A model generated the notes under the pieces. It was not told where the DNA came from, ran no database searches, and saw only the letters and a program-made list of their open reading frames with translations. 64,000 nt of DNA from a virus. The position numbers and the translations under genes are program-made. Each line of letters opens with the position of its first letter. The stretch's first letter is position 1. Below, in pieces: positions 1-37,952 of the stretch. Location of the stretch: positions 17,108-81,107 of IMG/VR virus record IMGVR_UViG_3300042197_001295; one strand, 5' to 3'.

Positions 1-1615
1 AACCAATGCTTATATTTCCTATTGATTCTTTTATCGTATTTTCAGGTTTATCTAGTAAATTAAACTCTGCAAATATTTCTTTTGCTATTTCTTCGGTTAT
101 CTCTGATTTTATTGCATCGTCTTCTTTTTTCGGTTTGAAAAAATAATTAATTTTATCCAAAAAGCTTTTCTTAGTTGGTTTGTATAAAGACGAAGAAAAA
201 GAACCAGTTATAATAGGAATAGAACTTGGATTTATTCTAGTGTTATATATATATTTGAAATGACTACCGTCTTCAGAAACATCATGAAACATTCCTATTT
301 GATTTTCTGGACTTAAAATATTATTCATGAATTTTACAACATTTACTATTCTTTTAATGGCAAATCCAGTTATATCAGTATTATATTTTTGGTTTAATTT
401 TGTTGCGAATTCGATTTCTTTATCTAAAGTTTTTGCAGTAATCGTCGAAGGAGTTTCAGATGTAGGAACAATAGTATTATCGTTTTCTAAATAATATTTA
501 TAATGTTCTTTTAAATTTAAAAATTTTGATATTGGATATATAATATCAGAATCATCGATCAAATTCCACAGTGCTGACAATTGAATGAAAAAATCTTTAG
601 GTTTATCTGGCAATTTATAATTACCCAGTATATTAAGTCGTACTCCTAAATCACCACTATAAGCTTCTTCATAGAATTTTTCGTTACATGTACGTAAATG
701 TTTAATAATTGATTCTTTATATCTTTCCTTATATTCTCTAGTAAAAATATTATCAAGTTCTTCAAACATTTCTTGTTTATCTTTACCCTCATAGTTCACA
801 GGTCTTTTTTTACCAAAAGCATAAATAAAAAGCAAAATAAGACCCCACCAATAACGGTTTACTTCTTTTTTCAAAAAAGTCGAAGTTCTTTCTTCTAATT
901 GTTTTTTTAGTTTTTCTAATTCATTTTGCAATTCTGGTATTTCATCATCTAAATCTGATTTCTCCTTTTTTATTTTTTCTAATAGGTCTGTTAATTCCTT
1001 TAATTGTCTTGTCAATCCATCAGAAATTGTAATGTCATTAGTAGAATCGGGAATTTTTGTTTTTAATTGTTCAATTTCTAATCTTACTCTAGCTATTTCA
1101 GCTATAATTTCATCTTGTCTATTTAAACCAATATTTATATTATTTTCTATTACTTCAATTTCACGATTTGTTGTAACTATTTTATTTTTATCTATTCTGC
1201 TTTTATTATTTTTATCTACCCATGATCTGAAATGTTCTTTCATTTCGTCATACCTGTTTCTATTTTGCCATATAAACAAATAACATTTTTTCAATAAACC
1301 TTTCATGGTATCTTTATTTTGAATCAAACTCCATATTTTAGAATCTTCGCTTTTTATATGATTTATCATATCCTGTAATCCTTTATCGTCCGATAAAATC
1401 GTATCAAAAGAGTTATTAAACGAGTTTTCGTTTGTTAAACTATTAATATAATCTTTTAAAGTAGGTAAATTATATAATACGTTTAAAACTCTTTGAAAAT
1501 TATGATTGTGAGAATAATTATTTCTTGTTCTGAATGTTTCTATTATATTGTCTATGGAATCGATCTTAGGTTTTGATGCCGCTTCTGTTATATATTCATA
1601 CAAATAAGATTTCAT
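1..1615 (-). CDS. Large capsid-targeted internal protein (partial, runs off left edge)
   Basis: An uninterrupted minus-strand frame of 538 codons starts with ATG and continues past the left edge, so the C-terminus is missing. The N-terminus MKSYLYEYITEA resembles the T4 capsid-targeting peptide (MKTYQEFIAEA) and contains an I-T-E|A site of the kind cut by T4-type prohead proteases. Residues about 180-255 are heptad-rich, with many Leu, Glu and Lys, and are probably coiled coil. A short hydrophobic stretch (YWWGLILLFIYAFG) follows. The rest is hydrophilic and unrecognised. A GATAAATA box lies six bases before the start, suggesting late expression. I infer packaging in the capsid and delivery with the DNA; the biochemical role is unknown. 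Confidence 0.6.
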   Translation of the reverse strand, partial: MKSYLYEYITEAASKPKIDSIDNIIETFRTRNNYSHNHNFQRVLNVLYNLPTLKDYINSLTNENSFNNSFDTILSDDKGLQDMINHIKSEDSKIWSLIQNKDTMKGLLKKCYLFIWQNRNRYDEMKEHFRSWVDKNNKSRIDKNKIVTTNREIEVIENNINIGLNRQDEIIAEIARVRLEIEQLKTKIPDSTNDITISDGLTRQLKELTDLLEKIKKEKSDLDDEIPELQNELEKLKKQLEERTSTFLKKEVNRYWWGLILLFIYAFGKKRPVNYEGKDKQEMFEELDNIFTREYKERYKESIIKHLRTCNEKFYEEAYSGDLGVRLNILGNYKLPDKPKDFFIQLSALWNLIDDSDIIYPISKFLNLKEHYKYYLENDNTIVPTSETPSTITAKTLDKEIEFATKLNQKYNTDITGFAIKRIVNVVKFMNNILSPENQIGMFHDVSEDGSHFKYIYNTRINPSSIPIITGSFSSSLYKPTKKSFLDKINYFFKPKKEDDAIKSEITEEIAKEIFAEFNLLDKPENTIKESIGNISIG

Positions 1616-1621
1616 TTTTTA

Positions 1622-1629
1622 TATTTATC
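1622..1629 (-). promoter_or_regulatory. Late-promoter-like box GATAAATA
   Basis: GATAAATA on the minus strand, six bases before the ATG of the left-edge internal protein. It matches the T4 late consensus TATAAATA at seven of eight positions and is divergent from the box of the next plus-strand gene. Confidence 0.4.
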
Positions 1630-1697
1630 TATTTTAAAACATAAAAATCACAATTAACAAATCATAAACATAGTTTACTATAAAATATTTTGTAAAT

Positions 1698-1705
1698 TAT
1701 AAATA
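1698..1705 (+). promoter_or_regulatory. Late-promoter-like box TATAAATA
   Basis: An exact TATAAATA eight bases before the ATG of the 140-residue protein. No Shine-Dalgarno sequence lies between box and start. Confidence 0.5.
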
Positions 1706-1713
1706 ATATTATA

Positions 1714-2136
1714 ATGGTAAGTTGGGGTTCATTTAATTCTCAGGTTAGAACTAATGTTTTTGAGATAAACTTTATTAGACGTTTACCTCCTCCTCCGGGG
1801 TATGTCGGGACAAGAAGAATGTTATGTACCAGATCTAAAGAATTATTAGATTCGCCTTGGGGAAGAAAATTTTTAAACTATACCGTTCCTAGTGGAAAAT
1901 TGCCATATGATCCGTATCAAAAAAATCTTGTTATTGTTTTTGATTTTATGCGTCAGGACTGGAGAGCAGTTCCGTGCGAATCATGTAATATAGTAACAAC
2001 AATATCTATTAAAAATGACGAAGAATTGAATAAATTTTATTTTGATTGGTTTGCTTTTTTACGCAGAATGGGAAATGGTGCCCAGTTTAAAAATTGGATG
2101 AATAGCACATGGACTCAATCTACGTGGAACATTTAA
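1714..2136 (+). CDS. Hypothetical protein, probably a small virion or assembly protein
   Basis: This 140-residue protein is rich in aromatic residues, including about nine Trp, and has a PPPPGY run near residue 25. The segment VFDFMRQDWRAVP is reminiscent of small beta-barrel phage proteins, but I do not recognise a family. It has no capsid-targeting leader, signal peptide or membrane segment. It is the only plus-strand gene in the first 6 kb, and its stop abuts the stop of the convergent ADP-ribosyltransferase gene. An exact TATAAATA box just before the ATG suggests late expression. Confidence 0.6.
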   Translation: MVSWGSFNSQVRTNVFEINFIRRLPPPPGYVGTRRMLCTRSKELLDSPWGRKFLNYTVPSGKLPYDPYQKNLVIVFDFMRQDWRAVPCESCNIVTTISIKNDEELNKFYFDWFAFLRRMGNGAQFKNWMNSTWTQSTWNI

Positions 2137-2955
2137 TTATATTTCATTTTCTACACCAACAATTTCAACATCGTCTGGATTGAAAATAACTACATTTCTT
2201 GTTATTTTTGGGATGGGATTTGATTGAGTCGGTCTTGAGTTTGCATCTGGATAAATTATTCCTTTGATACCGTTTTTTAATAAAAATAAAGAAGCAGCTT
2301 TGGGTTTGTTATGGCAATACCCTTCTAACAATCCTCCGTTTTCTTTTGGTATGGAAAAAGATTCTTTTATACCTTTGTATATTTCAAATCCACTAGATTC
2401 TTCTAAAATATGTATGTTAGATGTAACATAATTCATTCCTCTTTCTATTTGATTTTTGTAACTAGACAATACTGTTTTAACAAATTTGGTTTGATCCTCA
2501 AAAAGATCAAACCATTTTAAAAATTCATCTTCATTTGCTTTGATTTCTACGATATATAATTTTCCTGCGGGAGGAGCGAACAACTCGTTTGGAAGAGATT
2601 CGACATATTTTATTCCATCTGTTAATCCTGCTTTTTTTAAATAATCTATAATACGATCTTTGCTCCAGTGTAATAAAATAAAATCCCATATTATCATTTT
2701 AGGATAATCTTGAGAAATATTAAAAAATTCATACCATTCTATACCAGCTACTTCTCTATATTTGTATTCTTCTTTATGTGCTTGTTGTATATAACTAGCG
2801 GCAACGGATTTATTTTCGGCAAAATAAAATCCCCAACCAAATGCTTGTGCGCCTTCACCTGAACCTATTTTGTCATAAACGAATTTTTTTTCATCAAATG
2901 GAACTGCCGAACCATGATATGCTCTTTCGTTTAACCATTGTTTAAATGTTTCCAT
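2137..2955 (-). CDS. ADP-ribosyltransferase-like protein (ART-PolyVal type) with capsid-targeting leader
   Basis: The protein has 272 residues. The start is set by a GGAGGA Shine-Dalgarno sequence eight bases upstream, rare in this window, which excludes a longer in-frame start. The leader METFKQWLNER contains an L-N-E site for the prohead protease. It is followed at once by YHGS, then IGSGEGAQAFGWGFYFAE, the typical N-terminal signature of the polyvalent-protein ADP-ribosyltransferase family (His of the H-Y-E motif, then the Gly/Tyr strand). The C-terminal NGIKGIIYPDA and NVVIFNPDDVEIV also fit. The gene overlaps the 3' end of the upstream ART-like gene, so translation is probably coupled. 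By analogy with T4 Alt it may be injected to modify host proteins. The target is unknown. Confidence 0.75.
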   Translation of the reverse strand: METFKQWLNERAYHGSAVPFDEKKFVYDKIGSGEGAQAFGWGFYFAENKSVAASYIQQAHKEEYKYREVAGIEWYEFFNISQDYPKMIIWDFILLHWSKDRIIDYLKKAGLTDGIKYVESLPNELFAPPAGKLYIVEIKANEDEFLKWFDLFEDQTKFVKTVLSSYKNQIERGMNYVTSNIHILEESSGFEIYKGIKESFSIPKENGGLLEGYCHNKPKAASLFLLKNGIKGIIYPDANSRPTQSNPIPKITRNVVIFNPDDVEIVGVENEI

Positions 2956-3824
2956 TTTTCTTCCTCCAGAGCTTTTTGAAAATCGTCTAAATGGTTGGGC
3001 CATACATATTTCAATATATTCTCAGTGTTCATATTTTTAAAAATATTTATCACTTGTTTTTTAGACAACTTAATTATTGGGTTGGCGAGTAGTCTGTCGA
3101 TAAAAATATCAAAATCAAATTTTTCTCTTGGTTTCAGAACTCTAAAATTATTTTTATTTAAAGATTTCGGTTTAAGATGGGAATATTGTTTTAAAAATTG
3201 CTTTGGTGTCAATCTAGTATATTTGGTATCTCTGTTCACATATTTATTTGGAGTGTCGTTAACCCATATTGCTTTTATAGAATTGTTGTTTAGTTCTCCT
3301 GTAAAGAGTGCTTGATATTCTGACGAAAAATATAGAGATTGTGCTAACTCTGGTCTATCGCTATTTTTAATAGAATCATATTTGCTTTTTGATGCAATAT
3401 TTCTAATTCTTAATCTTTCATGTTCTCTTTTTTGATCATCGCCAAAAAAGAATTGTGCTGGTTGACCTTGGATGGTATGATTGCCCTCCGGCCAAACAGG
3501 TGCCTCTAGATCAGAAACTCTGGAGCTAAATTCTATTATATAATTTCCAAATTCTTTTACCGTTCCCAAATCTATACTTACGAATAAACCTTTTGGGTTG
3601 TTATCAGCTTCATATGAATATATTCTTCTTGCTGTTTCCTTTCCGGTTAATCCAAAATCTAGGAATTCAAATAAATCACTTACTCTATTAAAACCGTGAT
3701 ATACTGTTATAACATCTGAATCTTTTAGCGGTTCTAATTTATCAGTAGAAATATATGAACCATTTCGTTGTCGTCCAACTTTTATTGTTTTTGATTCTAT
3801 TAGATAATTTTTAAAAGATATCAT
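2931..3824 (-). CDS. Second ADP-ribosyltransferase-like protein with capsid-targeting leader
   Basis: This is a 297-residue protein. MISFKNYLIES is a textbook leader with L-I-E|S. After it, ITVYHGFNRV could supply the catalytic His, NNPKGLFVSIDLGTVKEFG resembles the strand-helix after it, and the FTGELNNNSIKAIWV segment could supply the Glu strand. This order fits an ADP-ribosyltransferase fold, but the match is weaker than in the next gene downstream, and the middle aromatic position is Phe rather than Tyr. Its last 25 bases overlap the other ART gene, so the two form a unit. A TTAAATA sequence lies just before the ATG. The catalytic assignment is inferred. Confidence 0.55.
   Translation of the reverse strand: MISFKNYLIESKTIKVGRQRNGSYISTDKLEPLKDSDVITVYHGFNRVSDLFEFLDFGLTGKETARRIYSYEADNNPKGLFVSIDLGTVKEFGNYIIEFSSRVSDLEAPVWPEGNHTIQGQPAQFFFGDDQKREHERLRIRNIASKSKYDSIKNSDRPELAQSLYFSSEYQALFTGELNNNSIKAIWVNDTPNKYVNRDTKYTRLTPKQFLKQYSHLKPKSLNKNNFRVLKPREKFDFDIFIDRLLANPIIKLSKKQVINIFKNMNTENILKYVWPNHLDDFQKALEEEKWKHLNNG
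2962..2967 (-). promoter_or_regulatory. Shine-Dalgarno site GGAGGA
   Basis: GGAGGA on the minus strand at normal spacing from the ATG of the ART-PolyVal gene, inside the 3' end of the upstream ART gene. It is notable because almost no other gene in the window has a Shine-Dalgarno site, and it fixes the start codon. Confidence 0.7.
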
Positions 3825-3860
3825 TATAATTATTTAATATTATAAGAAGTTTAAATGTTT

Positions 3861-4139
3861 TCATTTTTTCTTACCGTATCCGCAATCTCTTGGACATTTC
3901 CCTCCACTGCACTTTCCATTACATTTCCATTTTCTTCTGGAAAGTTGATTAGGGCTGCATTTTCCTTTGTCTTTTATTCCGGCACTACGAGTACAATATC
4001 TAACGCCTTTACAAGTTCCGGGAGCGATTGTATAATCTTTGTGACCATGACTAACTGTTTTTCCTCCGCATTTTGTTTTCCACTTCTTTTTGGATTCGTT
4101 TAACATGGAATTTAAGTAATTGTTAAATTTTGTAAGCAT
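3861..4139 (-). CDS. Small Cys-rich basic capsid-targeted protein
   Basis: This 92-residue protein begins MLTKFNNYLNSMLNES, with L-N-E|S as a predicted protease site. Cleavage would leave about 76 residues containing nine Cys and an excess of Lys/Arg (for example CNGKCSGGKCPRDCGYGKKK at the C-terminus). The Cys spacing suggests zinc-binding or disulphide knots and the charge suggests DNA binding. The central APGTCKGVRYCTRSAGI and SRRKWKCNGKC resemble a short domain I have seen in other phage virion proteins, but I cannot name it. It sits between the ART pair and two paralogous leader proteins and is likely a late gene. Function unknown. Confidence 0.65.
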   Translation of the reverse strand: MLTKFNNYLNSMLNESKKKWKTKCGGKTVSHGHKDYTIAPGTCKGVRYCTRSAGIKDKGKCSPNQLSRRKWKCNGKCSGGKCPRDCGYGKKK

Positions 4140-4191
4140 AATTATATTTATTTATCGAGATTAAAAAATAATTTTAATAATTTTGAACTTT

Positions 4192-4758
4192 TTATTTTGT
4201 CGTGACTTTATTATAATCTGGATTACGTGCTTTTATTTCTTCTGTATTGTCTTCGTCTTCTATTACAAAACCTGCTCTAGTAATTGCGATTTTATTATTA
4301 TTGATTCTTAAATTAATATTATCTTTTTTATCGAGTGACACAGAAGGTCTAGAAACAACAAACTGAGGATTGTGATTCATTCTGAAATGTTTCAATATTT
4401 CTATTCTTGTATTTCTTATAATTTCTAATTCATCTTTTCTGTCTTCCCTATCTTCGCATCCATTTAAATTTGCATCCATAGCCCAGAAAGTGTGATTTAT
4501 TCTTGTGGATATTTCATATTTATCCAACTCCTTGTCGTCGGGATATAATTCAAATTCTATATGTACATGGTTCCTTCTGCGAGTTTTTCCCTTATATACA
4601 AATTTAGTATTTTCCTTTCTATTATTATCATTACCAAATATAACACATGAACCTGTTTTTTTAGTAACTTCTATATTAATTTTATTTGGTGTTTCAAATG
4701 TTGAAACATCAGATTCATTTAACATGGAATAAAAATATTTGTTAAATTTTTCAAACAT
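4192..4758 (-). CDS. Capsid-targeted internal protein, paralogue A
   Basis: This 188-residue protein starts MFEKFNKYFYSMLNES with an L-N-E|S site, nearly identical in pattern to its neighbours. The remainder is closely related to the next gene upstream: both contain RNTRIEILKHFR, NPQFV, AGFVIED and KARNP in the same order, so they are tandem duplicates. The conserved part looks like a compact alpha/beta domain; I do not recognise it. A CTAAATA sequence seven bases before the ATG fits the late-gene pattern. Injection with the DNA is inferred from the leader alone. Confidence 0.6.
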   Translation of the reverse strand: MFEKFNKYFYSMLNESDVSTFETPNKINIEVTKKTGSCVIFGNDNNRKENTKFVYKGKTRRRNHVHIEFELYPDDKELDKYEISTRINHTFWAMDANLNGCEDREDRKDELEIIRNTRIEILKHFRMNHNPQFVVSRPSVSLDKKDNINLRINNNKIAITRAGFVIEDEDNTEEIKARNPDYNKVTTK

Positions 4759-4826
4759 ATAGTTATTTAGATAAACCTATAAATAAAAATATAACACTGA
4801 GCTAACATAAAAAATCATCTTCTTTG

Positions 4827-5396
4827 CTATACTTGTGTTTTATAATTTGGATTGCGAGCTTTTATTAAATGCGCGTTTTCTAAGTCATCTAAGATACTTT
4901 CCGGTTTATCTTCTATTACAAAACCTGCTCCAGCAATTGCGGTTTTATTATTATTGACTCTTTTTAGAAAATCTCGTCTTTCTTCTTCACTCATTTGGAA
5001 AGCGGGTTTTGAAATAACAAACTGAGGATTATATTTCGTTCTGAAATGTTTTAATATTTCTATTCTTGTATTTCTTATAATTTTTAATTCTTCTTTTCTA
5101 TCTTCCTTATCTTCACAATTTTCTAATGCATTAGAACCAACAGATCTATAAGCACCATTTATCATTGTAAATATTTCATATGTATCTGGTTCTTTATGTG
5201 TATCTAGTAAAAATTTTACTATTATGTAATTACCTCTTTTAGTTTCTCCATCATAGAGGTAATACGTGCCATATAAATTTGTTTTTAATTCTATTTTTAT
5301 TTCAATTTCATCTAATATTGTATCATTTTCATCTAATATTGTAAATGTAGATTTATTAAAAAAAGACTTGAGATAATCGTTGAATTTTTTTAACAT
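4827..5396 (-). CDS. Capsid-targeted internal protein, paralogue B, with altered cleavage site
   Basis: This 189-residue protein is the tandem duplicate of the neighbouring gene, sharing RNTRIEILKHFR, NPQFV, AGFVIED and KARNP. The leader MLKKFNDYLKSFFNKS keeps the amphipathic pattern but has F-N-K instead of L-N-E. The Glu that prohead proteases require is missing, so this copy may be packaged uncleaved or may have lost packaging. A TTAAATA sequence precedes the ATG. Function unknown. Confidence 0.6.
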   Translation of the reverse strand: MLKKFNDYLKSFFNKSTFTILDENDTILDEIEIKIELKTNLYGTYYLYDGETKRGNYIIVKFLLDTHKEPDTYEIFTMINGAYRSVGSNALENCEDKEDRKEELKIIRNTRIEILKHFRTKYNPQFVISKPAFQMSEEERRDFLKRVNNNKTAIAGAGFVIEDKPESILDDLENAHLIKARNPNYKTQV

Positions 5397-5443
5397 ATCA
5401 TTATTTAAATTTTAATCTTTAGACGAAGATTTGCTTCAACTTA

Positions 5444-6064
5444 TTAATGAGGATGTTCAGGAAATACCCTCAACACTATTGGATTGGACTTCGGATTTAC
5501 TAATTTATCTTTAAGTTCTTCATCTTTACTTAACATATCGAAAAATTTTTTCCCTACAGGAGTTCTACTAGAAGTTTCTATTTTTTTTACTTTTGGATAT
5601 TTTTGTATTACGCTTTTAATCATATTTTTTCCTATATCGTTTTTCTGCCATTTATCACGAACACTAATCATATCAATATAAAACAAATCTTCCGTGATAT
5701 TTCCTTCTATCAATCCTAAAATGTTTTTTTGTCCCTTTCTATCGTTATTCCAAACATCGGTTATTGGATTTCTTGATCCTTTAGGGACAATTTTATACGG
5801 AATTTTTCCTTCTTTTAATTCTTTTGCGGATTCCTCTGTTTTCATAAAATAGATAAGGGAATATCCTTTTGCAAAAAAACCGCTGTCCTCATCAATTCTA
5901 AAAAGAACTATATTTTTTTGTAACATCTCTGGTGTGCAATCTTTGAGGGCTATTTTTTTCCCCGATTCGTCATCGAAATATGCTTTTTTATTTTTACGAT
6001 TAATATAAAAATCTGGCATTTCTAATAAAAATTGATTAATGTAATTGTTAAATTTTTCCATCAT
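5444..6064 (-). CDS. GNAT-like acetyltransferase with capsid-targeting-type leader
   Basis: From the MM start the protein has 206 residues and begins with the leader MMEKFNNYINQFLLEM (L-L-E|M, an atypical P1' residue). The C-terminal half reads FYIDMISVRDKWQKNDIGKN, then MIKSVIQKYPKVKKIETSSR and GKKFFDML. This matches the GNAT acetyl-CoA site (beta strand, R/K-x-x-G-x-G-like loop, helix), although the loop is degenerate. A longer in-frame start at 6142 follows a CTAAATA box and would add 26 residues before the leader. I prefer the internal start because the leader should be N-terminal, but this is unsettled. Substrate unknown; an injected host-modifying enzyme is plausible. Confidence 0.5.
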   Translation of the reverse strand: MMEKFNNYINQFLLEMPDFYINRKNKKAYFDDESGKKIALKDCTPEMLQKNIVLFRIDEDSGFFAKGYSLIYFMKTEESAKELKEGKIPYKIVPKGSRNPITDVWNNDRKGQKNILGLIEGNITEDLFYIDMISVRDKWQKNDIGKNMIKSVIQKYPKVKKIETSSRTPVGKKFFDMLSKDEELKDKLVNPKSNPIVLRVFPEHPH

Positions 6065-6198
6065 AAAAATCTCATTATTTTTATTAGAATTTTTTATTTT
6101 GTAATTATCGCCAAAAGGAGCGGTTCCTCTAAATGTTTTCATATTATTATTTAGTATTAAAAACACAAAACACTAAATACTAAATACTAAATAATACT

Positions 6199-6558
6199 AT
6201 GTACGATTACTTACGAGAAAGTTATTTGGAACAATTTAATCACGAAACTACTGTTAAAAGAGATTTAGATCTTCTTGTTAAAGAAGCACATCAATATTTT
6301 AACGGAAGTAAATATTATACAAAACAATATAATTTCCTTTTAAAGAAAATGTTAGAAGGAACCAAATTTAATATGTTTAATGCTAGAGATTTGGGATATC
6401 AGACTATGGATATGATAACTGAAGGAACCGCTTCTCGTATTAACGAAATCAACAAAAAGATATGGAATTATATCCACGAAAATATTGATAGTCCTTCTCG
6501 TAGACATGCATATTCGGAATGGTATAGAAATTTTAATGAAAGTTACACGATCTTATAA
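6199..6558 (+). CDS. Truncated capsid-targeted-type protein, 5' part of a broken gene
   Basis: The first open segment encodes 119 residues starting MYDYLRESYLEQFN, with L-R-E|S matching the prohead protease pattern. The rest is helical and charged. After the TAA stop the same frame continues with protein-like sequence, so this is probably the N-terminal part of a longer ancestral protein. Three tandem CTAAATA units directly precede the ATG, and the last may act as the late-promoter-like box. Function unknown. Confidence 0.5.
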   Translation: MYDYLRESYLEQFNHETTVKRDLDLLVKEAHQYFNGSKYYTKQYNFLLKKMLEGTKFNMFNARDLGYQTMDMITEGTASRINEINKKIWNYIHENIDSPSRRHAYSEWYRNFNESYTIL

Positions 6559-6846
6559 GCTACGCAGAAAGAATTTGGCCGGGGTTTTGACAAATTCAAA
6601 GCCAAACTAGAAGAAATTATAAACTAATTAGGAGATAAAGAACAAGCAATAACCAAACTTGAGGAACTTAATATGTTGAGTTATGACCTAGAAGATTTAG
6701 AATTTTTCGCTAAAACGCTTGGAGGTCATCGTGCAAGCGAACGGATATCAAACGCATATCAAATCCCACGAAATGAAGAAACGATAAAACAATATGCGGT
6801 GAACGAAATTTCAAATTACGTTTTTAAAAAAGTGGTTAGGGGATAA
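6199..6846 (+). pseudogene. Broken gene: one frame interrupted by two in-frame TAA codons
   Basis: The same reading frame runs from the ATG through TAA at 6556 and TAA at 6625 to a final TAA at 6844. The downstream segments read like real protein (GRGFDKFKAKLEEIIN, then LEFFAKTLGGHRASERISN and KQYAVNEISNYVFKK). Two nonsense changes in one long frame suggest recent decay of a roughly 215-residue gene. The last 36 bases overlap the convergent gene. TAA is the normal stop elsewhere, so genome-wide reassignment is unlikely. Confidence 0.55.
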
Positions 6847-7260
6847 GCCAATTTCTTTGTTAAATAACTCGATATTTGTTATTGTTGATTTCAGCATTAA
6901 GCACTTTCCGCCCATCCATACTTCTTTATTCTCAGTAATACGAGGAAAAGTTTTCGTATCATATAATTTAAATTTATTTCTTTGTGGGTCTAGGTAATTA
7001 TTTAATATATCTAACAGAGAGATTCCCGATAAAATTTCCTCTATGATTTTTAGGGCATCTTTGTCAAATATATAGGTATCTTTGTCAAATATATAGTGAC
7101 TATTTCTTACGATTTCTTCTAACCGTTTTTTCATTATTTCATTTTCCTTAATCTTTAACAATATTTCATTAGTTTTTTCGATATTTTTTAAAAAATTTAT
7201 TCTAAATTCGCTATTATCTTTTTCATAAAATGAAGAACTACGAGCATTGTATGGAGACAT
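6811..7260 (-). CDS. Hypothetical protein, possibly missing its leader by frameshift
   Basis: This 149-residue charged helical protein has no recognisable domain. Residues around 57-68 contain a small internal duplication (YIFDKD twice) from a near-perfect tandem 21-base repeat. Unlike its neighbours it lacks a capsid-targeting leader, but a leader-like MFDNFVDGLILRES lies just upstream in another frame, ending in the overlap with this ATG. The current start may therefore be a truncated remnant of a longer, frameshifted gene. Function unknown. Confidence 0.45.
   Translation of the reverse strand: MSPYNARSSSFYEKDNSEFRINFLKNIEKTNEILLKIKENEIMKKRLEEIVRNSHYIFDKDTYIFDKDALKIIEEILSGISLLDILNNYLDPQRNKFKLYDTKTFPRITENKEVWMGGKCLMLKSTITNIELFNKEIGLSPNHFFKNVI
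7055..7096. repeat. Short tandem duplication (about 21 bases, twice)
   Basis: Two copies of ATCTTTGTCAAATATATAG in direct tandem with only a base or two different. It stays in frame in the minus-strand gene and duplicates the peptide YIFDKD. It is a slippage-type duplication. Confidence 0.7.
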
Positions 7261-7262
7261 AT

Positions 7263-7340
7263 TAATTTATTCTTATCTTCTATCGATTCTCTTAATATGA
7301 GACCATCAACAAAATTATCAAACATCGGAAGACTATTCAT
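7263..7340 (-). pseudogene. Out-of-frame leader remnant of the 149-residue gene
   Basis: On the minus strand ATG at 7340 or 7325 opens MFDNFVDGLILRES, followed by IEDKNKLI. L-R-E|S is a good protease site and the peptide matches the leaders of nearby genes. The frame then overlaps the ATG of the 149-residue gene in another frame and closes inside it. A single-base indel would fuse leader and protein. Sequencing error, programmed frameshift or true decay cannot be separated here. Confidence 0.4.
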
Positions 7341-7342
7341 AA

Positions 7343-7468
7343 TTTATACTTATACGAAACAATCGAATATATAAAAAAACAGATTTGCCTCCTTCAAAAC
7401 TCTTAGACGAAAAACGCCCAAACGATGCGTTTTTAAAGATTGTGGATATGCTGTATGGAAAATTATAA
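7343..7468 (+). pseudogene. Gene remnant without a start codon
   Basis: A 41-codon open stretch on the plus strand ends with PPSKLLDEKRPNDAFLKIV and DMLYGKL, which reads like the C-terminus of a real protein. There is no upstream ATG in frame; a TTG exists. It lies in a roughly 200-base gap between genes in a decayed region and may be the tail of a deleted gene. Confidence 0.3.
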
Positions 7469-7469
7469 T

Positions 7470-8207
7470 CTAGACTAATTGATTTATAAATCTCAATACA
7501 GATTCAAACAAATATTGGGTTTTTTCATTAGAATCTTTTGGAAGTTTTTCCAAGGCTTTTTCTAAATCATTATATGCATTTATAACTTCTCTAGTCTCGT
7601 CGAATTCTAGGATTCTGCCTTTTGATTCTAAGATTCCTTTAACAAAGGCAGAATGACATGACGGACTCGCCACCACATCCATAGCGACTAACTGAAAATC
7701 ACTTACAATAGCTCCTCTAGAAGATTCGTCTATTTTTCCTAATGCTCTGGTGCTAACACCGAATCCCCCTCCCCCGTTTATAATACCTTTTAATATTTTG
7801 CCTTTTGGCGTTTCGGTTAAAACTCTTGATTCTCCTATATAAAGAGTAGATCCACTTTTTGAATTTTCTTCTTCTCTTAAATTTAAAATATATGCACATG
7901 CAGTTTTTAATGAAACTTCTGTAGTTGGTGGGTGTTCTAGTGCTTGATAAGAAGTTTTTGTATTTATGGAATTTTCAGTGTACAATTTAACTTGTTCGCG
8001 AGCTTCGTTAGTTTTATAAATTCTACCGTTTCTATTTGCTTTGGCATTTCCTAATTCTATAGATCTTTCGTCATATGATTCTGCGTATGGTCCTTTTATT
8101 TTTAAAATTCTCGGCTCAGACGAATTTGATTGTTCAGTGATGATTTCAAAATCATCTCTAGAAAATCTAGGTTTCAAATCAATAACTAAATTAAACTTTT
8201 TATCCAT
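7470..8207 (-). CDS. 21: Prohead core protease (T4 gp21-like)
   Basis: This 245-residue serine protease of the phage prohead family would mature the capsid by cutting scaffold, MCP and internal proteins after L/I-x-E. Visible family signatures are GNAKANRNGRIY near residue 52, QALEHPPTTEVSL with the catalytic His, the TPKGKILKGIINGGGGFGV block, GVSTRALG with the catalytic Ser, and VAMDVVASPS at the end of the catalytic core. The gene lies among the leader-bearing genes whose products it should cleave, rather than next to the capsid gene as in T4. A TATAAATA box nine bases before the ATG indicates late expression. Confidence 0.85.
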   Translation of the reverse strand: MDKKFNLVIDLKPRFSRDDFEIITEQSNSSEPRILKIKGPYAESYDERSIELGNAKANRNGRIYKTNEAREQVKLYTENSINTKTSYQALEHPPTTEVSLKTACAYILNLREEENSKSGSTLYIGESRVLTETPKGKILKGIINGGGGFGVSTRALGKIDESSRGAIVSDFQLVAMDVVASPSCHSAFVKGILESKGRILEFDETREVINAYNDLEKALEKLPKDSNEKTQYLFESVLRFINQLV

Positions 8208-8216
8208 TATAGATAT

Positions 8217-8224
8217 TATTTATA
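8217..8224 (-). promoter_or_regulatory. Late-promoter-like box TATAAATA for the protease gene
   Basis: An exact TATAAATA on the minus strand, nine bases before the protease ATG. Confidence 0.5.
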
Positions 8225-8244
8225 TTAGTTTATATTAATAATCT

Positions 8245-8252
8245 AATAAATA
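8245..8252 (+). promoter_or_regulatory. Late-promoter-like box AATAAATA
   Basis: AATAAATA five bases before the ATG of the 159-residue leader-type protein, divergent from the protease box. Confidence 0.4.
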
Positions 8253-8257
8253 CACAT

Positions 8258-8737
8258 ATGTTGAACAAATTTAATAATTATTGTGAAACTTTTCTTGGAA
8301 TTATTTGGAGAACAAACCGCGATGAAGACGAAAACGACTATCCAGAAGGTAGAGACGATAGAGAAGTCTTACCTAGTCAATGGTGGGGATTTTGGCTTTT
8401 GCCAGATGGAAAACTAAGACCAGTAGGAATGATGCAACACCAAGAAGCGGGACGCGACATTTATAAAAAGATAAATCCAGAGGGACTCCATAAAGATGCT
8501 TTAAATGAAAAAGCAGAAAAATTAACAATTGTAGATTTTTTAAAAATGGGTTGGGCACTTTTAAGAATAGTAATAGATGGAAGTAATAATTATAAAACGA
8601 TATTTTGTGATTATGATAGTAGTAAAGGATTAGACAGTTTGCAAAATAAAGCATTAACGGGTTTACGGAAAGAATATAAAATATCAAAAATTATAGAAAA
8701 AGGAATAGTTCCAGAAAATGTATACGGGATAAAGTAA
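8258..8737 (+). CDS. Leader-type hypothetical protein
   Basis: This 159-residue protein begins MLNKFNNYCETFL, clearly like the leaders MLTKFNNYLNSML and MMEKFNNYINQFL of the minus-strand cluster, but without an L/I-x-E site nearby. The domain WWGFWLLPDGKLRPVGMMQH has the look of a small phage domain with a conserved His after a G-W/L-P-D-G strand; I cannot name it. It is divergent from the protease gene with a late-type box. It may be a packaged protein whose leader is not removed. Confidence 0.5.
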   Translation: MLNKFNNYCETFLGIIWRTNRDEDENDYPEGRDDREVLPSQWWGFWLLPDGKLRPVGMMQHQEAGRDIYKKINPEGLHKDALNEKAEKLTIVDFLKMGWALLRIVIDGSNNYKTIFCDYDSSKGLDSLQNKALTGLRKEYKISKIIEKGIVPENVYGIK

Positions 8738-26509: not shown

Positions 26510-29500
26510 ATGAAATCTAATAAAAAATGGCCATGTATAGGAAGAGTTATACAAGCTAACTTAAACGGAACGGTAAATGTTGCAATTCCCGGTTGGAACA
26601 TGGGAAATGGTCCTGAAGAAACTGCTTTGTTTTATTCTGAATGGACAACAGATCCAAGAACCATGAAAGCTTGGCAAGATATAATTGCTACCGGAAATTC
26701 GCTTGCATTTGTTATGTCTCCTTTAAACGGAGGGGCAGGACCATCATATTATGGAACATCTGGTGGTGGTTATAGTGCCGATCCTAATAGTGATTATAGA
26801 GCACGGAACGGAGGAGACCCATTTTCTAATACAAATGGCGATCCCGGAATGCCAACAGATGCTAATGGTAATATATTAATAGAAGATTTTTATGCGGCAG
26901 CATTACAAAAAATTCAAAATTCTTCATTAAATGGGTTTTCGCCAGAAGATGGTGGAAATTACGGTATAAACGGAACTCCACAATCATGGGCATCTTTTAT
27001 GACAAGAATGGCATGGGCGGAATCTGGTACCACTATCGGAAATAAAGGATATGTTAGACCGTACATTGTTGGTGATGAGGGTAGATCTTATGGTGTTTTA
27101 CAATTTGGTATAGGCCAAGGAAACACTGGAATAACACCACAAAATTGGAGAAACGCCCCTAGCCAAATTGATGCTTTTATACGATTTACAGAATCATGGG
27201 TTAAAAATGATAGTAAGTATATAAATCCTCCTTTTCCAGTTAAAGCAAAACGATATAAAGGTTGGGGAGGACTTGGATCGACATTTGGGCCGATACGAAC
27301 AAATGTCGTAAATACAAAACCGTTACCTCCAAACTACAAACAAAGAGGAGAATATGCAGATGTAGTAGCACAAAGTACAGAAAATAATAGAAAGTCTAGA
27401 CTTACATATGACAATAATCAAACGGAAACAGAAAAATATTTTTCTGATTTGGCTAACAATAAGGCCTCTTGCAACGAAAGTAATTGTGGAGAAGCAATAG
27501 GAGAACAGTTTTTCATAAAACCGGGAGACGTTTATAGTCATAATAAAATATACGATGCTAAATTTGATACTTCTAGCGACACTAGAGCTTCGTCTTCATA
27601 TGATGAAACACGATTAAAAAAATTACTGGATGGTTCAGATCAATTTATAATTTTTAGAAGAACATTAGAAAATTCTAATGATCACGGAGTATTTAAAACC
27701 GGAAGAGTTATATCAAGCGGAACTTTTGACGGAAAACCTTGGGTAAAGATAAGAGCAGTTGGTGCCTATCAAGGAAATGGTAAACTTTATACTTCGCGAG
27801 ACAGAGTATTAACAACAGCAAGAGGATATGGGGGTCAAAGTGTTCCGGGTGTAGGCAATGTATATACTCTTGAAAGAGTTCATAATTTCTCAGATATAAA
27901 ACCAAATAGATTAAACTATCCGAATACTTATAGCGCAAAAGCAGAACCGTCAATAGAAAGTGCCAATTCAACTTCTAATTCTTCCGGTCCAACCCCAATG
28001 TCACCAAACTTTGCGGCGCATGTTGAACATTTCCCGGCAGCAAATGGATCATTTTCCCTTCCTTCGTTGGGGTCATATGTTATTTTAAATTTATTAGACG
28101 GTATGACAATTCCTATAGTCATGGGATATTTCATGGGAGCAGCAGAATCTACAAATGTTCTTGGAAGTTTTCCAGTAAATGAAACAGATGGAACTCCAGC
28201 AGGTGTTGCTGTGGAATCAAATCAATTAGCAAATGATAATTTATTTGCTTCGCCCGCATTCAATACAAATGTTCTTGGAAGTTTTCTAGTAAATGAAACA
28301 GATGGAACTTCAGCAGGTGTTGCTTCGGAATCAAATCAATTAGCAAATAATACTTTATTTGCTCCGCCCGAATTCTATACAAATGAAGCGCTGTATACGA
28401 GTGCAACGAGTTCTTTTTCTGATTATCTTGTAATAGATTATAATCAACGGAACGTAGGTACTACCAACGGAAACCATATATTATATAATACGCTAAAAGG
28501 TTTTTTTTCTTTCAGTGGCATAACAGGAGAAGAAAAAATGATTTTGAAAGGTGCGCTCCAAAATATTCTAAGATTAGATAACGATGGATGGCAGCAATAT
28601 GCTCAAAATTATTTTTCTAGAGTTCCCGGTCTTGCAAATAGCACATTCGGAACAATATATGAAAATATAAAAAACTCAAAAAATACTAGTAACGAAGGAT
28701 TTTCTACAAACGAATCTTCTAACAGAATAGCACATATTGCACAACAAACAATGTTAGATATTTATGCACAGGCACATCAAATTGCTTCTCAATTTGATAT
28801 TAATCGTTTAAATGGGCAACATCCAGATTGTCCAGTATGTAAAAAAGGAACATATCAAAGTGAATCTTTTACTTCTGTGGGAGGAATTTCTTCGTTCCCG
28901 CCTCAAGCAAGTTCTTCTGGAGAAGTGAATAGTGGTCTTATTAACAGCGTAATAAAATTTGGATACAAAATCTTTAAACCAGATACCGCAGGATGTTATA
29001 CTTGTAGAGGTACTGGACGTTCTCCTGCATCCGAAGGCGGAAGATACCCTAATATGGTATCTCAAAAACAAAAAGATATGGAAAAAATTTATGAAGACAA
29101 TAAAGAAATTTTAAAACAAATGAGAGATACAATTAATAACAGTGGGGGACATGGAAATTATGCACATGCTGGAAATATATATATTGGATCAGGACTTGCT
29201 TCTTTTGATTTTGATTTCCCCTCGTTTAGAGTTGACGAAGTAGGTAAATTATCTGTTGTGGGTTTAACTTCAGGAATAAATGGATTAAATCCGAATGCTA
29301 TTGCTGTTCCTTTAGTAGAACCTGTTGAGGTTCCTGATCCGGGCTTCGGAAATGTAAGTATAGTTGGTAATAGAAGCATTTCTATTAATTCTGGATCTGG
29401 CGGATTCAATTTATCTACAACTGGAAACGTAAATCAAATCGGAGCAATTTACAAAGCAGATTATGTGTCTGCTTCTTTTACTGGAAAAAAGGGAATTATG

Positions 29501-36425: not shown

Positions 36426-37952
36426 ATGTTATTAGACGAAAGTTATCAAGGTTCGGTATCCAAGGCAAAAATGCTCACTGCCAAATGGCGGGAAGTTCTT
36501 GACCACGAAGATGCCGGAAGTCGCAGAATTGAAGATCCATATCTTCGTTATTGTACAGCTCAAATTCTCGAAAACCAAGCAGATTGGTTTAAGAAAAAGG
36601 GAATGTTGAGATTTAATGGTGGTCGTGGAGTTCAAAGATTGAACGAAGCAGGACTTGGAAACAATGATATTTATACCTCTTATGGTAATCCCGGATACAA
36701 TGTCGGTGCAAATGGCGGAGATGTTCCTGCCAATAACGACTTTTATGCTCCGGGCGATGCTCGTATCCCGACTACGTTGATCCCGATGTTAAGACGTACG
36801 TTCCCTTCGTTGATCACGCACGAAATTGCTGGTGTTCAACCTATGGACGGACCCTTAGCACTCATTTGGGCATTACGTTATCGTTATGATGGCGAAAACC
36901 TTGCTTGCTTCTCTCCTGATGGTGGTTGCAGCATGAATGCTCCTGCTGTTAGCAGTGCCCCTTGGAGAGCGCACAGTTATCAAGAAGCGGGTAATCCTGC
37001 TTACTTGAATACTGCTCACACTGGTGTTATTAACAATAGCCTTAGTGGTATTGGTGTTGTTGGTCAATCTACCTCTGGTAGTAATTTCGACAGTCTTCCG
37101 TTTGAAATGGGTGTTGCAGAACAATTGTTAAATTGGGAAAGCAAAACTAATTTCCCGCAAATGAAGTTTACCCTTGAAAAGACTGCTGTTGAAGCAGGTA
37201 CTAGAAGGCTTGCTACCAAGTGGCCTCTTGAAGCTGAACAAGACTTGGGTGCAATGAATCGTTTGGATATTCGTCAGGAAATGACCAATATCATGGCATA
37301 CGAATTACAAGCGGAAATTGACCGTGAAATTGTCATTCGTATGAGAAACATTGCTTTGCAAGCTGGTCAAGGTATCGCAAATGGGTATTCCTTGTGGAGT
37401 CCTTGTAGTGCTGATGGTCGTCACTTTGCAGAACGTGGTGTTGATTTGTATGCTCGTATCGTGCAAATCGCAAACATCATGACTGTCAAGACCAGACGTG
37501 GTCCTGCTAACTTCTTGATTGTTACCCCTACGGTTGCAACCATTCTCCAAACTTTGGATAATTATACTTTGTATAATATCAATCACACTCTTCCTCAAAC
37601 CCAATCTTTTGGTATTACCAAGATTGGTACCTTGGGTGGTGAGTTTACTGTTTACAGAGATGTTCACACCGAAGCTCAGTGGGTTCAAGGTCAAAGACCT
37701 AATCGTATTGATTATATCCTTCTTGGATACAAGGGACGTGAGTTCTGGGATACTGGATTGGTTTATGCTCCGTATATTCCAATTACTATCCAAGAAACCA
37801 TTGGACCAAACGATGGTGCTGCTAGAATTCTCATGATGACTCGCTATGCGGTAGCGGAATCGATTTGGGGGTCCAGTAACTTCTATCATGTTCTGATTTT
37901 GAAGGGTCTTGGTCAAGCATGTGGAGTTAACGGTCCTGTGTATATGGGCTAA
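36426..37952 (+). CDS. 23: Major capsid protein (T4 gp23-like)
   Basis: A 508-residue precursor. The region after residue 75 (NPGYNVGANGG, then IPTTLIPMLRRTFPSLITHE and IAGVQPMDGP) matches the gp23 start of the mature protein and its HK97-type fold. R-L-N-E|A after residue 74 aligns with the known T4 cleavage site and gives a 434-residue mature subunit. The N-terminal 74 residues are helical and charged like the gp23 delta domain. The true ATG lies 87 bases inside a longer frame that starts at a TTG. G+C content is higher than in the surrounding genes, typical of a highly expressed gene. Confidence 0.9.
   Translation: MLLDESYQGSVSKAKMLTAKWREVLDHEDAGSRRIEDPYLRYCTAQILENQADWFKKKGMLRFNGGRGVQRLNEAGLGNNDIYTSYGNPGYNVGANGGDVPANNDFYAPGDARIPTTLIPMLRRTFPSLITHEIAGVQPMDGPLALIWALRYRYDGENLACFSPDGGCSMNAPAVSSAPWRAHSYQEAGNPAYLNTAHTGVINNSLSGIGVVGQSTSGSNFDSLPFEMGVAEQLLNWESKTNFPQMKFTLEKTAVEAGTRRLATKWPLEAEQDLGAMNRLDIRQEMTNIMAYELQAEIDREIVIRMRNIALQAGQGIANGYSLWSPCSADGRHFAERGVDLYARIVQIANIMTVKTRRGPANFLIVTPTVATILQTLDNYTLYNINHTLPQTQSFGITKIGTLGGEFTVYRDVHTEAQWVQGQRPNRIDYILLGYKGREFWDTGLVYAPYIPITIQETIGPNDGAARILMMTRYAVAESIWGSSNFYHVLILKGLGQACGVNGPVYMG

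Follow-up and report, generated by a model that had tools for sequence, protein, structure and literature searches.

The window analysed here is a 64,000-nt stretch of viral DNA (bases 17108–81107 of the 81,107-bp IMG/VR virus record IMGVR_UViG_3300042197_001295), and towards its left end lies a group of genes whose products begin with the same kind of short peptide, or leader, on bodies that are nearly all unrelated. Judging from its gp23-family major capsid protein (MCP) and S77 prohead protease, the phage is T4-like. The MCP (36426–37952, plus strand; PF07068, 3.9e-77) is ~31% identical to T4-like gp23, and the prohead core protease (7470–8207, minus strand; Peptidase_S77 E 1.7e-14; PHROG head maturation protease E 1.6e-32) is encoded among the leader-bearing, or tagged, genes. 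A sequence-only reading had already placed the protease there, had pointed to R-L-N-E/A in the MCP (36636–36650; here and below the slash marks the predicted cut) and had proposed that the leader works like those of T4 internal proteins. The first two observations were confirmed, and the last is supported at the sequence level by the spacing of T4 internal protein IPIII, a link to late genes, the adjoining protease and the types of enzyme carried as cargo. Overall, we consider it likely that this phage combines T4-type capsid targeting, release by the prohead protease and injection of an unusually large, enzyme-rich cargo set. Packaging and cleavage of the tagged proteins are strongly predicted from the sequences, and we further infer their injection, effector action and cellular targets.

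For genes beyond the window we used a longer record, IMGVR_UViG_3300042198_000079 (144,634 bp; hereafter G001), which can serve this purpose because it is identical to the window record where the two were compared (20.7 kb; MCP and overlap stretches read). After hand correction of start codons, ~20 of ~147 G001 genes are tagged, in several clusters, with degenerate leaders extra. The set is larger than the cluster noted earlier at the left end: tagged genes also lie upstream of the window, and clusters are found up to 100 kb away.

Tagged genes and their leaders

The leader occurs in a short form, M-x-x-F-x-x-[FYW]-[LI]-x-E, and in a longer form, M-x(1-3)-K-F-N-x-Y-x(3)-[FM]-L-x-E, whose spacing differs from that of T4. 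At least eight tagged frames had been proposed within positions 1–8737; all of them exist, six fit well and one is doubtful, and in two further frames the targeting half is present without the cut site. Unless stated otherwise, they lie on the minus strand. The leftmost encodes an 899-amino-acid coiled-coil protein (1..1615; MKSYLYEYITE/A), of which the first 538 codons fall in the window and the rest extends to its left; TAAATA ends 6 nt before the ATG. An ADP-ribosyltransferase (ART)-like protein of 272 amino acids follows (2137–2955; METFKQWLNE/R), with phage relatives to 1e-14, and its gene is without an upstream TAAATA, overlaps the preceding gene and has a GGAGG site. The adjoining 297-amino-acid protein (2931–3824; MISFKNYLIE/S) shows an ART-like YHG motif by eye only, with no Pfam or PHROG domain match and a poor AlphaFold model (predicted local distance difference test, pLDDT, 39.8). 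Then come a small basic Cys-rich protein of 92 amino acids (3861–4139; MLTKFNNYLNSMLNE/S), a 188-amino-acid protein (4192–4758; MFEKFNKYFYSMLNE/S) and a paralogue of the latter in which the Glu is lost (4827–5396; FFNK/S; 49% identity over 144 amino acids). A GNAT-like acetyltransferase (5444–6061; MEKFNNYINQFLLE/M) matches Acetyltransf_10 at 1e-3, below the cut-off; its start codon is uncertain, a longer frame with TAAATA starting ~80 nt upstream. The doubtful case is a 119-amino-acid frame on the plus strand (6199–6558; MYDYLRES) that matches none of the patterns. Finally, an apparently broken gene (6811–7340) has the leader MNSLPMFDNFVDGLILRE/S in one frame and its remainder in another, and a 159-amino-acid protein on the plus strand (8258–8737) has the targeting half of the leader (MLNKFNNYCETFLG) without a cut site.

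The remainder of the broken gene is related to part of phrog_12810, some of that homology being missing. In G001, a tagged 71-amino-acid frame at 125169–125574 (MLSFKCYFIES...) appears by eye to be the start of a GNAT domain; an overlapping short frame comes next, and the gene is probably truncated.

The bodies had been described as completely different, which is nearly so: apart from the paralogues at 4192–4758 and 4827–5396, the only related pair is G001 1965–4076 and 125605–128166. Synonymous codons among the leaders agree no better than codon usage predicts (p 0.12 and 0.64), and this comparison gives no support to recent copying or shuffling of the leader at the DNA level, which we had considered.

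Leader statistics and comparison with T4

The leader tests used simple gene calls (147 genes), and since the correction of starts was itself driven by the leader, all statistics were taken from the unedited calls. The pattern M.{1,4}[FY]..[YFW].{0,8}[LIF].E matched 12 of the 147 genes, against 0.95 (maximum 5 in 1000) when residues 2–26 of the N-termini were permuted. Outside the window, in DNA that the sequence-only reading had not covered, it matched 10 genes against 0.64 in shuffles, a control of the kind proposed in that reading, and in the replication block it matched none, which speaks against a leader equally common in early genes. Among the 10 is a tail-fibre gene with PTR repeats (MSDNFEEWLNE), a probably false match that we treat as chance. 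The strict IPIII spacing, M..[FYW]..[FYW][LIVFM].E, was found in 4 calls (0.04 expected), a slightly relaxed version in 8 (0.26) and the longer K-F-N-x-Y form in 3 (0.0006).

These patterns were tuned on this genome, and controls in T4 and IMG/VR therefore weigh more. Applied in DNA form to the whole T4 genome, the pattern found ipII, ipIII and gp61.1 and nothing else; its sensitivity is limited, as T4 ipI and Alt were missed. The reversed pattern had no match in T4, and a respaced control gave 0–3 matches per whole genome, without clustering. T4 gp61.1 (NC_000866 18966–19130; 54 amino acids, function unassigned) has a perfect leader, MKTFKEFIKE, and on that sequence may be an unrecognised internal protein.

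Mutation of T4 IPIII has assigned residues 4 and 7 mainly to targeting and residues 8 and 10 to processing, with Asp at position 10 stopping processing and still allowing targeting (PMC9026906). The leaders described here match this spacing, with aromatic residues at 4 and 7, an aliphatic residue at 8 and Glu at 10. The Glu is lost in two window genes (4827–5396 and 8258–8737) and in one gene of a second phage, G004 (MISFKQFINGD), and given the precedent of IPIII position 10 such leaders need not have lost targeting. The likeness to T4 IPI-III thus covers leader length and residue spacing, an S77 prohead protease, predicted late expression and unrelated bodies, whereas the differences are ~20 tagged genes here instead of a few, many recognisable enzymes as cargo, a second, longer leader form and several leaders without Glu. 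Ejection proteins of SPN3US and phiKZ-like phages are likewise head proteins cut after x-x-E by a prohead protease, but theirs are long propeptides with A-x-E or S-x-E sites (PMC5694885).

Late promoters

TAAATA is the core of the T4 late promoter (TATAAATA). It occurs within 35 nt upstream of 21 of 25 leader genes (degenerate leaders included) compared with 51 of 122 other genes (Fisher p 1.3e-4), and of 1 of 25 genes in the replication block. Judging from this promoter motif, the leader genes are probably expressed late.

In most G001 late genes TAAATA ends 5–8 nt before the start codon (for example, on the upstream side of 7470–8207), which would leave late mRNAs with hardly any leader. Among the IMG/VR leader genes listed (see below), the spacers are bimodal, with a Shine-Dalgarno sequence in 0 of 57 genes at ≤9 nt and in 22 of 50 at ≥13 nt.

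Predicted cut site and enzyme cargo

If the protease has to cut at the junction with the cargo, [LI]-x-E is expected there even where the leader differs between phages, and we examined this in three cargo families. A Cys-rich basic protein has FLLE/KKDRC here and ILSE/KKADRC in Flavobacterium phage immuto. The protein at 2931–3824 has YLIE/S, and its homologue in L209, which carries another leader and is encoded after a neck-protein-like gene, has VINE/V. An Ntn hydrolase has ILNE/C here, FLNE/C and FINE/C in the Chryseobacterium phages MA9V-1 and MA9V-2, LLNE/C in L020 and NLVE/C in L019. Phages of Flavobacterium and Chryseobacterium carry relatives of the cargo, and on this basis a flavobacterium, or some other member of the Bacteroidota, is the probable host.

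The protein at 2137–2955 matches DUF3990 (2.6e-4) and ART-PolyVal (PF18760; 2.3e-3), both below cut-off, and aligns clearly with ART domains of three other phages: Sulfitobacter phage phiGT1 (in a head-module protein), Tunturi_5 (in a protein of the 1490-amino-acid class) and vir555 (in a very long protein). All three domains sit inside longer chains, whereas the ART-like domain here begins a few residues past the leader. Its motifs, read by eye, are of the H-Y-D type, which places it with the polyvalent clade rather than with T4 Alt (PMC5512222). The comparison with Alt, a packaged and injected ADP-ribosyltransferase, therefore extends to an ART with a head-targeting leader in a T4-like phage, but not to the R-S-E clade of Alt/VIP2. 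Outside the window, the cargo includes a Nudix protein (5.9e-8), a kinase-like protein (phrog_15752, 4e-6), a HELGH protein (by eye only) and the Ntn hydrolase; a sequence search of solved structures gave no usable match. Several of these cargoes appear to be enzyme types thought to be packaged and injected by other phages. Polyvalent proteins (Iyer et al. 2017, PMC5512222) share the same kind of ART, a similar domain repertoire and predicted delivery with the DNA, whereas here the domains are separate, small, single-domain proteins with one tag each, so that the set works like a polyvalent protein without being a member of that group.

A tagged Ntn hydrolase

The Ntn hydrolase (G001 111771–113426) matches NF040521 (1e-10) and PF03417 (1.5e-4), scoring below both curated cut-offs (41.5 versus 85 bits and 22 versus 23.2, respectively). 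Its AlphaFold model is of low confidence (42.7); of the first 16 PDB structures that it matched by fold, 15 bear the name of Ntn cysteine hydrolases, which agrees with the sequence evidence and counts for little alone. These profile and fold matches liken it to the C45 autoproteolytic acyltransferases and hydrolases (the fold of AAT, penicillin V acylase and bile salt hydrolase), from which it differs in having, instead of the long propeptide, a head-targeting leader whose [LI]xE immediately precedes the Cys. E27, C28 and KNRD (compare the [RK]N-x-D expected after a nucleophile Cys) are invariant in 5/5 homologues, two of them mutually close, and each has L or I at P3. The profile match starts at residue 26.

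Head maturation may expose the nucleophile, because [LI]-x-E directly precedes the putative catalytic Cys in all five. We tentatively suggest from these sequences that the prohead protease also activates the enzyme, a single cut freeing the effector and creating the N-terminal nucleophile in place of autoproteolysis. If so, the enzyme would be inactive in the cell that produces it and active on arrival in the next. It is also quite possible, for this protein, that the Glu before the Cys belongs to normal C45 autoproteolysis and matches the prohead site by coincidence, C45 enzymes being autoproteolytic by definition of the matching NCBIfam model. Coincidence fits less well with the conservation of L/I at P3 and E at P1 in 5/5 homologues while other leader residues vary, and with the fact that profile positions 1–87 are unmatched and their place is taken by a leader of 27 residues; of its two LxE sites, the second adjoins C28. 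A pattern scan found no bacterial relatives, and the residue before the Cys was thus compared within phages only.

The leader in other phages

Scanning IMG/VR for the leader behind a late promoter yielded at least 120 stretches, versus 15 for a respaced control pattern of equal content. Among the matches listed, 115 of 121 sites start a reading frame that is ≥60 amino acids long or runs off the contig (control, 4 of 15), and the 108 proteins of ≥60 amino acids form 35 unrelated clusters after removal of the leader, the largest with 66 members. Cluster representatives include SAM lyase, HAD phosphatase, zeta-toxin-like kinase, tRNA nucleotidyltransferase, methyltransferase and rubrerythrin-like domains. 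Together with homologous cargoes bearing different leaders, this supports the earlier idea of a modular set with swappable cargo, short of recent shuffling at the DNA level. The commonest tagged family (66 of 108 among the matches listed; for example, L088 7287–7949) is ~200 amino acids long and has no Pfam or PHROG match.

The second phage, G004, has ~15 tagged genes within 42–64 kb, with GNAT (1.3e-7), ART-PolyVal (2.9e-6) and AAA_33/zeta (1.9e-9) domains; seven proteins related to one another show R-G / S-T / E patterns. One profile, phrog_12810 (788 positions), spans two kinds of its tagged proteins (11–260 and 250–458), which fits the same domains travelling either fused or tagged. The S77 protease is also found in MA9V-1, MA9V-2, immuto, G003, G004, G005 and G008. 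In the open-access literature, to which our search was limited, we found no previous survey of tagged sets like these across a whole genome.

In MA9V-1 (OR050627 126501–130544) and MA9V-2 the S77 domain lies inside an open frame of >1200 amino acids, far longer than T4 gp21. Phage immuto (NC_055915; L014 12294–28931) has two more repeated N-terminal forms on differing bodies, MKKSQL..II..E and MENFDLKKFLVENKLT, close to the terminase, portal and protease genes; these are possibly other leader dialects.

Proposed route and alternative explanations

In the proposed route, tagged proteins would be made from late promoters late in infection, the aromatic half of the leader would bind the prohead core, and the S77 protease would cut after [LI]-x-E. 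The freed cargo would remain in the head alongside the DNA and enter the next host by injection, its enzymes acting there ahead of phage gene expression.

Several observations weigh against this route. The Glu is absent in some frames, most enzyme calls in the window score below curated cut-offs, and the phage is known here from sequence alone. Of four contigs of ≥100 kb with tagged leaders that were tested, two (G002 and G006) have no protease match and may be fragments or differ. In PA5oct, the loose [LI]xE rule is not predictive of detection by mass spectrometry (MS), matching 11 of 93 MS-detected proteins versus roughly 30 of ~350 others (the latter hand-counted), and is too common to discriminate. 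One PA5oct protein nevertheless counts in favour of the route: EST35_0202, a homologue of the commonest tagged family, is MS-detected. That loose [LI]xE is common by itself is also what would favour a chance likeness among AT-rich N-termini, an explanation that we regard as most improbable, as shuffles, internal positions and respaced and reversed patterns all reject it.

It is conceivable, though unlikely, that the tagged proteins, once packaged and cut, serve in the head core or structure, with a role in assembly, instead of being injected. A scaffold-like gene (G001 27752–28645; MNLFENYQLTE/S) is tagged too, and the commonest IMG/VR tagged family has an MS-detected homologue, PA5oct EST35_0202, that is annotated as structural and whose own leader has no LxE site. 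On the other hand, ART, Nudix, GNAT and Ntn hydrolase cargoes are kinds of protein that a head does not need, and the bodies are unrelated and vary from phage to phage. There is very little to be said for a reading in which the leader peptide serves translation or expression of late genes whose mRNA leaders are very short: the late promoter does lie 5–8 nt ahead of many start codons, but most late-promoter genes have no leader (51 such other genes), the constraint falls on amino acids and their spacing to Glu 10 and not on codons, and the cut site is kept across phages. Targeting to the head, proteolytic release and injection therefore remain our preferred explanation.

Implications

Taken together, the set looks like a dismantled polyvalent protein, with ART, kinase, GNAT and Nudix domains as separate tagged proteins where other phages may fuse them into one injected chain. 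Phage proteins that act within the first minutes of infection have unrelated sequences, which makes them difficult to recognise. Should the leader prove to be a genuine head-targeting tag, a pattern of 10 residues combined with a late promoter would list candidate injected effectors directly from genomes and metagenomes, the yield being ~20 in this phage, ~15 in G004 and 35 unrelated clusters among the IMG/VR matches listed. T4 internal proteins and polyvalent proteins would then be joined as two delivery routes for similar enzymes, and the Ntn hydrolase would offer a clean case for proteolytic activation inside the virion.

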